NCBI GenBank assembly: GCA_016185125.1
Contig: JACPOC010000034.1
Coordinates: forward strand, 1-64,000
Direction: 5' to 3'
Source: Bacteroidota bacterium
Lineage (GTDB): Bacteria; Bacteroidota; Bacteroidia; B-17B0; Aurantibacillaceae
Length of the DNA stretch: 64,000 bases
Of the stretch, positions 41,975 to 47,170 are shown piece by piece. Within the stretch, counting starts at the first letter, position 1. Each line of letters begins with the position of its first letter. A program made the translations under genes and the position numbers. The notes beneath the pieces are model-generated. The model was not told the DNA's origin and did not search any database. It saw nothing but the letters and a program-made list of their open reading frames with translations.

Positions 41975-42905
41975 TTTACCTAAACGCCGGAGTATAAACA
42001 AGCGTTGTTTAGGTTAAACTATGCGTTGTTTAGGTTAAACTACGCGTTGTTTAGCTTTTAAAGCCAAATTTTTGGTACAAATATGCAAACGTTTAGCTCT
42101 TATACCTAAAATTTTAGCGGCGCTGCTTAAAAGGCGGAGTTCCTTGCCTAAATTTTTGATTATAGAACCTAAACAACGAATGTTTTTACCTAAACGCCGG
42201 AGTATAAACAAGCGTTGTTTAGGTTAAACTATGCGTTGTTTAGGTTAAACTACGCGTTGTTTAGCTTTTAAAACCAAATTTTTGGTACAAATATGCAAAC
42301 GTTTAGCTCTTATACCTAAAATTTTAGCGGCGCTGCTTAAAAGGCGGAGTTCCTTGCCTAAATTTTTGATTATAGAACCTAAACAACGGATGTTTTTACC
42401 TAAACGCCGGAGTATAAACAAGCGTTGTTTAGCTCAAACTATGCGTTGTTTAGGTTAAACTACGCGTTGTTTAGCTTTTAAAGCCAAATTTTTGATAAAA
42501 ATATTCAAACGTTTAGCTCTTATACCTAAAATTTTAGCGGCGCTGCTTAAAATGCGGAGTTCCTTGCCTAAATTTTTAATCATAGAACCTAAACAACGGA
42601 TGTTTTTACCTAAACAACGGGTATAAATGAGGCGTTGTTTAGGTTAAACTATGCGTTGTTTAGCTCAAACTACGCGTTGTTTAGCTTTTACAGCCAAATT
42701 TTTGGTACAAATATTCAAACTTTTAGCTCTTATACCTAAAATTTTAGCGGAGCTGCTTAAAAGGCGGAGTTCCTTGCCTAAATTTTTGATTATACAACCT
42801 AAACAACGGATGTTTTTACCTAAACGCCGCAGTATAAACAAGCGTTGTTTAGCTCAAACTAAGCGTTGTTTGGCCGTGCAAGCCAAAATTTTACCATACA
42901 CACCC
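41975..42905. repeat. 210-bp higher-order tandem repeat built of 21-bp units
   Basis: The phrase AGTATAAACA recurs at 41991, 42201, 42411, (42621) and 42831, an exact 210-bp period over more than four copies. Each copy divides into ten 21-bp subunits such as GCGTTGTTTAGG plus 9 bases, and CCTAAACAACG plus 10 bases. Copies 1 and 2 are almost identical, and later copies diverge. One frame gives (K/R)-x-L-x-x-x heptads but is broken by stops in several copies. The open frame at 42651-42947 is therefore probably not a gene. The region from 41884 to 41974 is plain spacer. Confidence 0.92.
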
Positions 42906-42967
42906 AAACACCCGGCTTTTATGCGCAAAAAAATTAACAAACATTAGTGTTTGTATTAATTTTATTT

Positions 42968-42975
42968 TATATTTG
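42968..42975 (+). promoter_or_regulatory. -7 box of the surface-protein gene
   Basis: TATATTTG matches TAnnTTTG and lies 18 bases before ATG at 42994. It supports that ATG, not the later ATG at 43068, as the original start. Confidence 0.6.
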
Positions 42976-43009
42976 TGCTATAAAACATTATACATGAAAA
43001 ACTCCCTCA

Positions 43010-43023
43010 CCCCCCCCCCCCCC
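43010..43023 (+). repeat. Run of 14 C, candidate phase-variation tract
   Basis: A homopolymer of 14 C lies five codons after ATG 42994. With 14 C the frame stops at 43042-43044. With 12 or 15 C it joins the downstream frame and supplies a complete signal peptide. Confidence 0.8.
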
Positions 43024-43067
43024 GCAAGGGAAAACAAGCTGTAAGCGGCTTTAAATACTTAATAATA

Positions 43068-44792
43068 ATGCTTTTTATAAGCGCAACTATTAAAAGTCAA
43101 ACCACCACCTTTACCGCAACCAATGTGAGGGTAACCGATACTTTAAGGACCATGAACGTAATGTATGCCCAAACAGTTCGGGCAAACGATACTTTACGTT
43201 GTATGAGTGGGGTTGTTGCAGAAAAGGATGTAAGAGTAGACGGAACACTTAATTTAACAGGCGATATTAACGCCCCAATTACTTCAACAGCTAATTTAGG
43301 GGAAGTAGTTGCAAAAGGTCAACTAACGGTTGCCGGCAATGCTACGTTTAATGGCGGCTTAAAACTTGCTCCTTTAACCGGCACAAGCGACAGGCTTTTG
43401 TATGTAGACCCGCTGGGTAATTTAAAAACTTCGGCTTCTACCGCCGCAACAGGACCTTTTTGGGAAACTATAGGAAATGCCGGCACTAACCCCTCAATTA
43501 ATTCTTTGGGAACCATAGATCAACAAGACCTTGTAATAAAAACAAGCGATAGTGAACGCATGCGGGTACTTGCAAATGGCGACATCTATTTTAGAACCGG
43601 AGCGGGTATGGTTTTAAAGTCCGCACCCAATATACTTAATCCGCCCTTTTCAGAAATTTTGGTTGGTATAGGAACTCAAAACCCGGTACGCTCTTTTCAT
43701 ATTTACACCGAGCATATAAGTGTTGTAAACCCTAACCCAGACCCCAACTTTTTGGCGGGTACGCACAACGGTATGCGCCTTGAAGATGTATCCGGCACAA
43801 CATTGCTTCCTGTAAAAAGCATTTGGGATATTTTACCTCATAACAAAAATTTGCTGTTTAGCAAAGCAGACCCTGCCGACCCTCACGTATTAAATGTAAA
43901 AATGATAATTGCCGATAATGGCAATGTAGGAATTGGGAATACCGCGCCCCTTGCTAAGTTACACGTAAGCGGTACCGGAATATTTTCGGGCAAAGTAGGT
44001 ATTGGCACCAATGCCCCAACCGGAAAACTGGAAGTGGTGGAAACTGCACAGGATCAGTATGGTTTGGTGGTTGGCGATTTATCGGGCAAAAGTTTAATGG
44101 TGGTGCCTAATTTAGGAACCGCCGGTTACAATCCTTTAAGCAATAGTGCAGATGTTGGTATTATTTTCAGAAACCAGAATGGCAATCCCGGAAACGCGGG
44201 CTTAACCATTGCGCCTCACAGTGCGGTAAATTCAGGGATACGGATTACTTCAACAGGTTATTTGGGAGTAGGCACTTCTAATCCCACTTCAAAGTTAACA
44301 GTAGACGCTGCAGGTGGCGAGGGCTTAGGGATAATATGTATGCCCACCCCAAATACCAAGGCAATTTCGGTATTTAACAACAATTCTCATCAATATGTTT
44401 TTTCGGTATATCCCAGTGGATATACCCATATAGGAAGTTTAACCACCGCTAACCCGGCCGCAGGATATAAGCTAACTGTTGACGGTAAAATAGGATCGCG
44501 CGAGGTATTGGTTAGCCTGCAGAACCCATGGCCCGATTATGTGTTCGAAAAAAACTATAAGTTAACATCATTAGATGCTGTACAAGCCTACGTAAAAGAA
44601 AACAAACACCTGCCAAACATACCGGCTGCCGCCGAATTAAACAAAAACGAATGCAGCCTTAATTTGGGGCAAATGCAAAGCAAGCAAATGGAAAAAATAG
44701 AAGAGCTTTATTTGTATTTGTTTGAAATGAAAAAAGAAATGGAAGAGTTGAAGAAGGAAAACGCTCTGCTAAAGAAGGCAATAATGAAATAA
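43068..44792 (+). CDS. Phase-variable surface protein with tail-fiber-like C-terminus
   Basis: A 574-residue frame starting MLFISATIKSQ. With the upstream ATG 42994 and 12 or 15 C in the tract, the product would begin MKNSLTPPPP, then RKGKQAVSGFKYLIIMLFIS, a complete signal peptide. The mature part has repeated beta-helix-like units (NGNVGIGNTAPLAKLHVSGTG, GKVGIGTNAPTGKLEV, LGVGTSNPTSKLTV). The C-terminal region (WPDYVFEKNYKLTSLDAVQA, ENKHLPNIPAA, a coiled coil) is a chaperone-like end common in Bacteroidota surface proteins. As assembled, export is doubtful. Confidence 0.82.
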   Translation: MLFISATIKSQTTTFTATNVRVTDTLRTMNVMYAQTVRANDTLRCMSGVVAEKDVRVDGTLNLTGDINAPITSTANLGEVVAKGQLTVAGNATFNGGLKLAPLTGTSDRLLYVDPLGNLKTSASTAATGPFWETIGNAGTNPSINSLGTIDQQDLVIKTSDSERMRVLANGDIYFRTGAGMVLKSAPNILNPPFSEILVGIGTQNPVRSFHIYTEHISVVNPNPDPNFLAGTHNGMRLEDVSGTTLLPVKSIWDILPHNKNLLFSKADPADPHVLNVKMIIADNGNVGIGNTAPLAKLHVSGTGIFSGKVGIGTNAPTGKLEVVETAQDQYGLVVGDLSGKSLMVVPNLGTAGYNPLSNSADVGIIFRNQNGNPGNAGLTIAPHSAVNSGIRITSTGYLGVGTSNPTSKLTVDAAGGEGLGIICMPTPNTKAISVFNNNSHQYVFSVYPSGYTHIGSLTTANPAAGYKLTVDGKIGSREVLVSLQNPWPDYVFEKNYKLTSLDAVQAYVKENKHLPNIPAAAELNKNECSLNLGQMQSKQMEKIEELYLYLFEMKKEMEELKKENALLKKAIMK

Positions 44793-45206: not shown

Positions 45207-45684
45207 AATATTTAAAAAAATAGTCATCATTTTGCTCATTATTAATGTATGTATGTTATTGTCGTGCCGAAAAAAATGTAAAAAAAGCGATTATTACAGT
45301 TTAGATGATCCACTAATTGACTTAACTAATGATGTTAGTCCTACACCTAATAATAACACAAACAGTAATAATATATATTTGTTTACCGATTCAGCCGCGT
45401 TGTATTCTAATTTTAGTTTACCGCCATCGTATGATAACATAGATTTTAATTCTTATTCGGTAATTTTTGTTAGTTTAACAAGTAAAGAAATGCCTAACAA
45501 ATATATCGAAAACATTCGTTTTTCTTTAGCAGATGAGGGTTCTAATTATGTGTTAACAATAACTTTTTGCACTTACAAAAAAAATAGCTTGGGGTATAGA
45601 CGCAGTTATAAAATGTACTCTTTAATTAAATCAAATAAGCTGGTAAATAAACCTATTACAATTATAAGAAAAAATGAATATTAA
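45190..45684 (+). CDS. Hypothetical lipoprotein
   Basis: A 164-residue protein starting at TTG 45190, with a hydrophobic leader and MLLSCRKK lipobox. The body has IDFNSYSVIFVSLTSKEMP and YVLTITFCTYKK strands. No ATG is better placed, and its start overlaps the preceding frame. It overlaps the next gene by 11 bases, so it is co-translated with the protease and may act with it, perhaps as an inhibitor or chaperone (inference). Confidence 0.65.
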   Translation: MNRIYRIFKKIVIILLIINVCMLLSCRKKCKKSDYYSLDDPLIDLTNDVSPTPNNNTNSNNIYLFTDSAALYSNFSLPPSYDNIDFNSYSVIFVSLTSKEMPNKYIENIRFSLADEGSNYVLTITFCTYKKNSLGYRRSYKMYSLIKSNKLVNKPITIIRKNEY

Positions 45685-47170
45685 AATTTTTGTTGTATTT
45701 AGTTTGGCTGCTAAAATAGCAACAGCTCAACTTGCGTTGCCTTGCAATAACAACCTGTATTGTGACCCTGCGTATTTAAATCCTATACCGGCAGACGTTT
45801 ATACGAAGAATGCTAGATCAGTCATGATGATCTATACACCTAATGGCGGTGGGCAATGTACAGCTACCCTATTACGCCAAATAGTTGGTGATGATAATCA
45901 ACAGCAAAATATTATTATAACAGCAAGGCATTGTATTCATCAAGGTGATAATGGATTTGGACCCCTTGCAGATATAAATAATATGGAAATTGAATTCAAT
46001 TACTCTAACCCAGATTGCAATGTTGTTCCAAATCCTCCTTATAAGACGGGTCGATATAAGTTAAAAGGAGCAACTCTTATTGATGAGAGCTTATTTAACG
46101 ATATCGCAATCCTTAAATTAAATCAGCCCATCCCCCCCCATTTTCAGCCGTATTATAGTGGTTGGACTGCATCGCCATTAATATCTCCTTCAGGTGCATA
46201 TTTTGATATTCATCATGCGGCAGAGGATATAAAAAAAATTAGTTCCACTACCATACCAATCGCGCTTAATGCCCCGATCCCATACCGAATCAATGCTATT
46301 TGGACAAATGGGGTAACTGAACAGGGATCATCTGGTTCCGCACTTTTTAATTATAACCGTCGCGTTATTGGAGCAGCCTCTTTTGGACTATCGAACAACA
46401 ACAATTGTTCAAACGGAGTTTATGTAAATTTTGGCAGATTTCTCCTTTTTTGGATGGGAAGCCCTGCCACTCGTAGTGTTCTGCGGCCAAATAATAATAA
46501 CAACCCTTTTATTCTTGGCAATTCGGGCGGAGAAATTGAATGTTACAAAGGCGATTTAAATTTAAATGGTAAGTATTGGCCCGCAGGCGATTATCAGCCA
46601 AATAATATTATAACTATAAAATGTGAAGGCAATATGTTTTTGGCTCAACCGGGTGGTTCAACAAATAACCTCACAGTATATCCCGGCGCTGAGTTTAATT
46701 TTGAGGCAGGCGGTCAAATTATAAAAGCGCAGCCCGGTTTTTACGCCATGGCAGGTTCTATTGTTTCCATAAAACCTAACATGGCCTGTACCCCCATGCG
46801 GATGATGAACAGCATTGATCCTTCTGACATTGACTCTAACAGCGTAAATTATTATTATGATGAATCAAAGGGAGAATTACCTAAAGAAGGAATGTATTCC
46901 GCGAAGCCTGTTTCTACCTTACAAATATTCCCTAACCCAAACAAAGGTGTTTTTAAGGTTAAAAGTTTAGGCTATAAAACCGAGCCTCATACCTTTGAGC
47001 TGATTGATGTAAATGGTAGAATCATCTATTCCGTTTCTTCCAATTATTTTGATAACGGCGAAGAAGAATCCTTTTCATTTACCGATTTACCCGGCGGAGT
47101 ATATATGCTTAAAATTGAAAACGAAGTTTCTAAAAACGCGGAGTATAAAAGGGTAATTATTCAAAAATAA
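45674..47170 (+). CDS. Secreted trypsin-like serine protease, T9SS substrate
   Basis: A 498-residue protein. After a signal peptide (VFSLAAKIATAQ), a chymotrypsin-fold domain has TARHCI (His), NDIAILKL (Asp) and EQGSSGSALF (Ser), the full triad, in the style of lysyl-endopeptidase-like enzymes. A linker with GGEIECYKGDLNLNGKYW follows. The C-terminal sorting domain (IFPNPNKGVFKVKS, YKRVIIQK) directs type IX secretion. Cleavage specificity unknown. Confidence 0.87.
   Translation: MNIKIFVVFSLAAKIATAQLALPCNNNLYCDPAYLNPIPADVYTKNARSVMMIYTPNGGGQCTATLLRQIVGDDNQQQNIIITARHCIHQGDNGFGPLADINNMEIEFNYSNPDCNVVPNPPYKTGRYKLKGATLIDESLFNDIAILKLNQPIPPHFQPYYSGWTASPLISPSGAYFDIHHAAEDIKKISSTTIPIALNAPIPYRINAIWTNGVTEQGSSGSALFNYNRRVIGAASFGLSNNNNCSNGVYVNFGRFLLFWMGSPATRSVLRPNNNNNPFILGNSGGEIECYKGDLNLNGKYWPAGDYQPNNIITIKCEGNMFLAQPGGSTNNLTVYPGAEFNFEAGGQIIKAQPGFYAMAGSIVSIKPNMACTPMRMMNSIDPSDIDSNSVNYYYDESKGELPKEGMYSAKPVSTLQIFPNPNKGVFKVKSLGYKTEPHTFELIDVNGRIIYSVSSNYFDNGEEESFSFTDLPGGVYMLKIENEVSKNAEYKRVIIQK

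Follow-up and report, generated by a model that had tools for sequence, protein, structure and literature searches.

The opa genes of Neisseria carry CTCTT pentamers in the region coding for the signal peptide; the copy number of the pentamer sets the reading frame, and the copies of the gene switch singly. Other surface genes, namely hmbR and nalP of Neisseria and a number in Campylobacter, are described in excerpts of the relevant reports as carrying a G/C homopolymer within the reading frame, where frameshifts turn expression on or off (PMC3786947, PMC3723659, PMC8355987), and it has been proposed that homopolymeric tracts serve prokaryotes generally as a means of regulation (PMC2831843). 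A 2025 review, in the part available, cites Bacteroides for invertase-mediated switching (PMC11868660). A literature search on slippage-driven phase variation in Bacteroidota did not return the layout described below, a weak absence since subscription papers were poorly covered. Slippage is itself a known mechanism; the novelty lies in its occurrence as a multi-copy cassette in this Bacteroidota lineage.

The locus lies on the forward strand of the window (the whole stretch of DNA analysed, 64 kb in length). A candidate -7 promoter box of the Bacteroidota TAnnTTTG type, TATATTTG (42968-42975), is followed after 18 bases by an ATG at 42994, from which a frame of 16 codons (42994-43044 with the stop codon) runs through a tract of 14 C (43010-43023) and would yield only the short product MKNSLTPPPPARENKL. 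Beyond the tract, a different frame encodes a signal peptide, KGKQAVSGFKYLIIMLFISATIKSQ (43026 to approximately 43100), whose hydrophobic core and n-region recur elsewhere in the genome, and the mature part of a fibre-like surface protein (43101-44792); this frame includes an ORF of 574 amino acids and is intact over 588 codons. The promoter box, start codon, tract, displaced signal peptide and early stop had all been proposed in the initial annotation and were confirmed by sequence and translation. Its further claim, that 12 or 15 C would join the two frames, held when the tract was varied by script, and 9 C proved equally effective: each of these three lengths gave a product of 597-599 residues from ATG 42994, and the remaining lengths within the range of 10-17 C gave only 15-20 residues. 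Tract length sets the frame of a downstream ORF that is itself intact.

Judged from this arrangement and the comparisons that follow, the locus is very probably a simple-sequence contingency locus, with translational phase variation by slippage. The polymerase would slip during replication on the poly-C tract, which forms proline codons between the start and the signal peptide, and gain or lose C residues. At 9, 12 or 15 C, the start would share its frame with the signal peptide, leading to synthesis and export of a fibre-like precursor of about 600 amino acids; at any other length, including the sequenced C14, translation would end after 15-20 codons and the gene would be off. Slippage rate and expression are matters that we infer, as is adhesive function.

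Between the TAA at 42981 and the tract, the signal-peptide frame was found to contain no ATG, GTG or TTG. Its first standard start codon is ATG 43068, and it could be argued that this is the true start and that the upstream ATG and the C run form a non-coding leader. Initiation there would, however, cut the signal peptide within its hydrophobic core and leave only MLFISATIKSQ, stripped of the basic n-region; moreover, the segment preceding ATG 43068 is conserved among the cassettes described below, and in-frame starts in relatives precede the whole signal peptide, so that we assign this explanation the lowest probability of those considered. One such relative, G006 (L026), has a related N-terminus with no tract and an in-frame start 5' of the complete signal peptide. 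In genes of this type, the signal peptide may be left out by gene callers: with the start called at 43068, an exported protein looks as if it had no export signal.

The tract itself is a repeat within the coding region whose unit is not a multiple of three and whose length is far above chance. Besides C14, the 64-kb window holds no run of nine or more C or G, and its six nine-C matches compare with a mean of 0.18 and a maximum of 3 in shuffled sequence. Across the 3.34-Mb genome, a first-order Markov model predicts 0.003 runs of at least 14, while runs of at least 10 occur at 8 sites against approximately 1.1 expected. Several other tracts were also observed. Two of C12-13 (G000:C43, L095 ~8793; G000:C16, L097 ~3850) have the common flank TTAATT-C12/13-(GC)ACAATAAACCCCAAC and lie just 3' of two unrelated ORFs, perhaps as parts of a dispersed element. 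G000:C43 also carries a tandem duplication of a lipoprotein-like ORF, the second copy of which (L095 7254-7994) has a G10 run within its frame and LKYST in place of the MKYST of the first. Poly-C runs of 9, 10 and 9 with similar flanks are packed into 53 bases of L001 (1479-1531; G000:C5:184609-184661).

A whole-genome search with a 131-base query region revealed that the unit of promoter, start, poly-C and signal peptide is present in four copies. In addition to that of the window, cassettes are located on contigs C23 (406-514; 92% identity to the window cassette), C17 (283-371; 88%) and C18 (20285-20377; 85%). In their alignment, TATATTTG and ATGAAAAAC are invariant and the signal peptide, n-region included, is common to all; the tracts are C14, C8 after CCCCTCCA (interrupted), C10 and C10, such that none of the four is in frame and all are off. 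The cassettes on contigs C23 and C17 precede fibre-like proteins truncated by the contig ends, and that on contig C18 precedes an intact frame of 1067 codons for a subtilase with sub-threshold Ig-like and T9SS-tail matches. As in opa, the repeat belongs to a family of surface genes with several copies and lies at the signal-peptide end of the gene. The layout is neither a lone accident nor a single sequencing slip. Cassettes that precede exported proteins of different kinds (adhesive fibres, subtilase) would switch independently, so that cells would come to differ in the set of surface proteins that they carry.

That all four cassettes are off could also indicate a pseudogene fixed in that state, as could the interrupted or short tracts of some relatives; a few family members with such tracts (C5, C6, CCCCTCCCCC) are not in frame and seem to have decayed rather than to be capable of switching. 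Against this, the long frames of both the fibre gene and the contig C18 subtilase are intact, many relatives likewise retain intact frames behind off tracts, and one or two slippage steps would restore the frame, making a fixed pseudogene extremely unlikely.

Among 40 genomes of the genus, the pattern ATGAAA-N5-30-A-C8 occurs at 11 places, compared with 1 for the reversed control pattern, and most of the 11 precede members of the gene family of the window fibre. With the gap lengthened, the pattern was found at 8 places, most of which again precede members of the family or signal peptides of a similar kind. Plain ATGA-N5-30-C9 was hardly above its control; the genus shows enrichment only for the form in which the start reads ATGAAA and the tract is preceded by an A, or at the level of the gene family. 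A protein-based scan of genome contigs returned no match. G014 has at least five genes that belong to the family or resemble it, and two of its contigs, G014:C14 and G014:C12, break off and start, respectively, within a C tract, which as evidence of length variation is suggestive only. Tract frames were counted in 24 family or family-like genes (19 in the genus and 5 in G037, a genome that belongs to another family), with one genome per species and in draft assemblies in which homopolymer length may be off by one: 7 were in frame with the downstream gene, and 10 and 7 were in the other two frames (chi-square p=0.69). Equal frame use alone would also arise if the upstream ATG were unrelated to the gene, but both the way the cassettes align and the existence of relatives that are in frame make this unlikely.

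Pentanucleotide repeats in known systems act through DNA slippage. In two homologous fibre genes the poly-C is replaced by repeats of this kind: G042 has (ACACA)14 and G023 (ACTCA)~5 after the start codon, the signal peptide lying in another frame in each case, and the G042 protein matches that of the window at E=8e-30. Poly-C and pentanucleotides have in common only a repeat unit whose length is not divisible by three, and their interchange is the strongest argument that slippage occurs on DNA. Long homopolymers can slip in RNA too, and slippage programmed at transcription or at the ribosome could, on this C run, bring some of the products back into frame with the DNA unchanged. Such a process would be expected to show a fixed offset, whereas the three offsets are used about equally, and the replacement of poly-C in homologues speaks against it further; we rejected programmed frameshifting on the ground that the offsets are not fixed, and give an RNA-level explanation next to no probability. 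DNA slippage remains our preferred account.

Beyond the genus, a TA-C9 version of the pattern was found at 48 places in 395 genomes of the class, clearly more often than the reversed control, and named genomes contain at least 119 stretches with the ATG-polyC pattern. Among the matches listed (80 loci, 81 matches), a long frame resembling a signal peptide lay 3' of the tract in 22 of 81 and on the other side in 5 of 81 (Fisher p=5e-4). Distinct loci combining tract and signal peptide numbered 57, picked by a crude hydrophobicity rule and so surely including a few that are not signal peptides; 17 were in frame and 40 were not, where one third would be expected in frame if length were free (p=0.67). 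The layout of start, poly-C and signal peptide was also seen in L246 (Thermoflexibacter ruber), L231, L186 and L254 (CAR bins), L206 (Treponema), and L240 and L255 (Verrucomicrobiales), some of them outside Bacteroidota, with tracts as long as C20.

Differences in length that change the frame were evident between both orthologues and paralogues. The same gene (79% DNA identity) has C12 and is in frame in Aequorivita antarctica but has C11 and is out of frame in A. capsosiphonis; an isolate of T. ruber has two off tracts, C13 and C14; and a single contig of the metagenome-assembled genome KatS3mg027 holds two fibre-type paralogues, one on with C16 and the other off with C12. These cases bear on the possibility that C14 is a homopolymer assembly error, and that an ordinary gene with a true tract of 15 (or 12) C is simply on. 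Runs of 14 are error-prone in assembly and one extra C restores the frame; yet errors would be needed in 17 of the 24 family members, including those with tracts of only 5-8 C, the cultured Aequorivita and T. ruber isolates show the same behaviour, and the 14-copy pentanucleotide of G042 is out of frame as well. We consider an assembly error to be very unlikely, and even with 15 C the layout would still be that of a slippage-prone switch.

Layout, frames, recurrence and free variation in length between paralogues and orthologues are thus legible in the assembled sequences themselves. Recurrence, free lengths and pentanucleotide replacement together fit DNA slippage and argue against programmed frameshifting or chance. 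The phase variation suggested by the initial annotation has gained strong support from comparison, through the four cassettes, the near-equal frames of the 24 loci, the C12/C11 pair of Aequorivita and the pentanucleotide replacements.

The protein encoded behind the tract had no match in Pfam or NCBIfam. It matched a PHROG tail fiber profile (3.9e-7) and, in the PDB, 8OND (Bd2133; E=2.3e-6) and 8OJN (E=0.009), matches that are modest because the region is repetitive. Available passages of the corresponding study identify these entries as the mosaic adhesive trimeric (MAT) fibres Bd2133 and Bd3182 of Bdellovibrio bacteriovorus (PMC10769870). The C-terminus carries a Bacteroidota domain (PDYVFEKNYKL..KHLPNIP..KIEEL) with a predicted terminal helix, for which an alignment of 18 relatives gave no meaningful Pfam or PDB match; an S74 chaperone/protease was matched in Pfam or PDB by neither the whole protein nor this domain. 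A beta-rich domain of about 130 amino acids after the signal peptide, of the MAT type, was not found by sequence, and an AlphaFold monomer model from three sequences was of low confidence (pLDDT 34.5), too poor to reveal one. Given the fibre matches and the lack of other domain matches, we describe the product as a fibre-like surface protein that appears to resemble the shafts of MAT and phage tail fibres and is probably adhesive, adhesion being an inference. In its surroundings, a 210-bp tandem repeat (41975-42871; 4.3 copies, 94%) with nested 21-mers (TAAACTAAGCGTTGTTTAGGT) lies directly 5' of the poly-C gene, and a trypsin-like protein with a T9SS sorting domain is encoded 0.9 kb 3' of it (45674-47170).

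There is a slightly better than even chance, in our view, that Bacteroidota own a widespread modular switch of promoter, start, repeat and signal peptide, in which poly-C and pentanucleotides are interchangeable and which has been copied before unrelated exported proteins (adhesive fibres, proteases and perhaps lipoproteins), to give each cell a random surface set. If so, it would contrast with the phase variation of the phylum as described to date, which is mainly by DNA inversion. Most known slippage switches come from pathogens and commensals that are adapted to a host. A multi-copy cassette in a Bacteroidota lineage for which most genomes are drafts may point to other uses of random surface diversity, such as phage evasion, attachment or predation.

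Among described systems, the MAT fibres of Bdellovibrio are like the window protein in their shaft and, according to the accessible text, in having the signal peptide first, a modular fibre and many paralogues; they differ in that the window protein has no detected S74 domain and ends in a different, Bacteroidota domain, and the sections available do not mention a poly-C switch (PMC10769870). With the invertible promoters of Bacteroides, as far as the review excerpt describes them (PMC11868660), the locus would share phase variation of Bacteroidota surface components, although switching there is by recombinase-driven inversion and here, as proposed, by replication slippage. The Neisseria hmbR and nalP and the Campylobacter genes are likewise reported to have a G/C homopolymer inside the reading frame, but belong to other phyla and encode other proteins, whereas promoter, start, tract and signal peptide are repeated here as a cassette. 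An analogy can also be drawn with opa, in which a slippage-prone repeat similarly marks the leader-peptide end of a multi-copy surface family. The differences are that the repeat of the window gene is poly-C, with pentamers in the G042 and G023 homologues, that it lies after the start codon but ahead of the signal peptide, and that in this Bacteroidota host the same type of cassette also fronts an unrelated exported protein. With opa-like placement but a poly-C tract, the gene would work like opa without being an opa gene.
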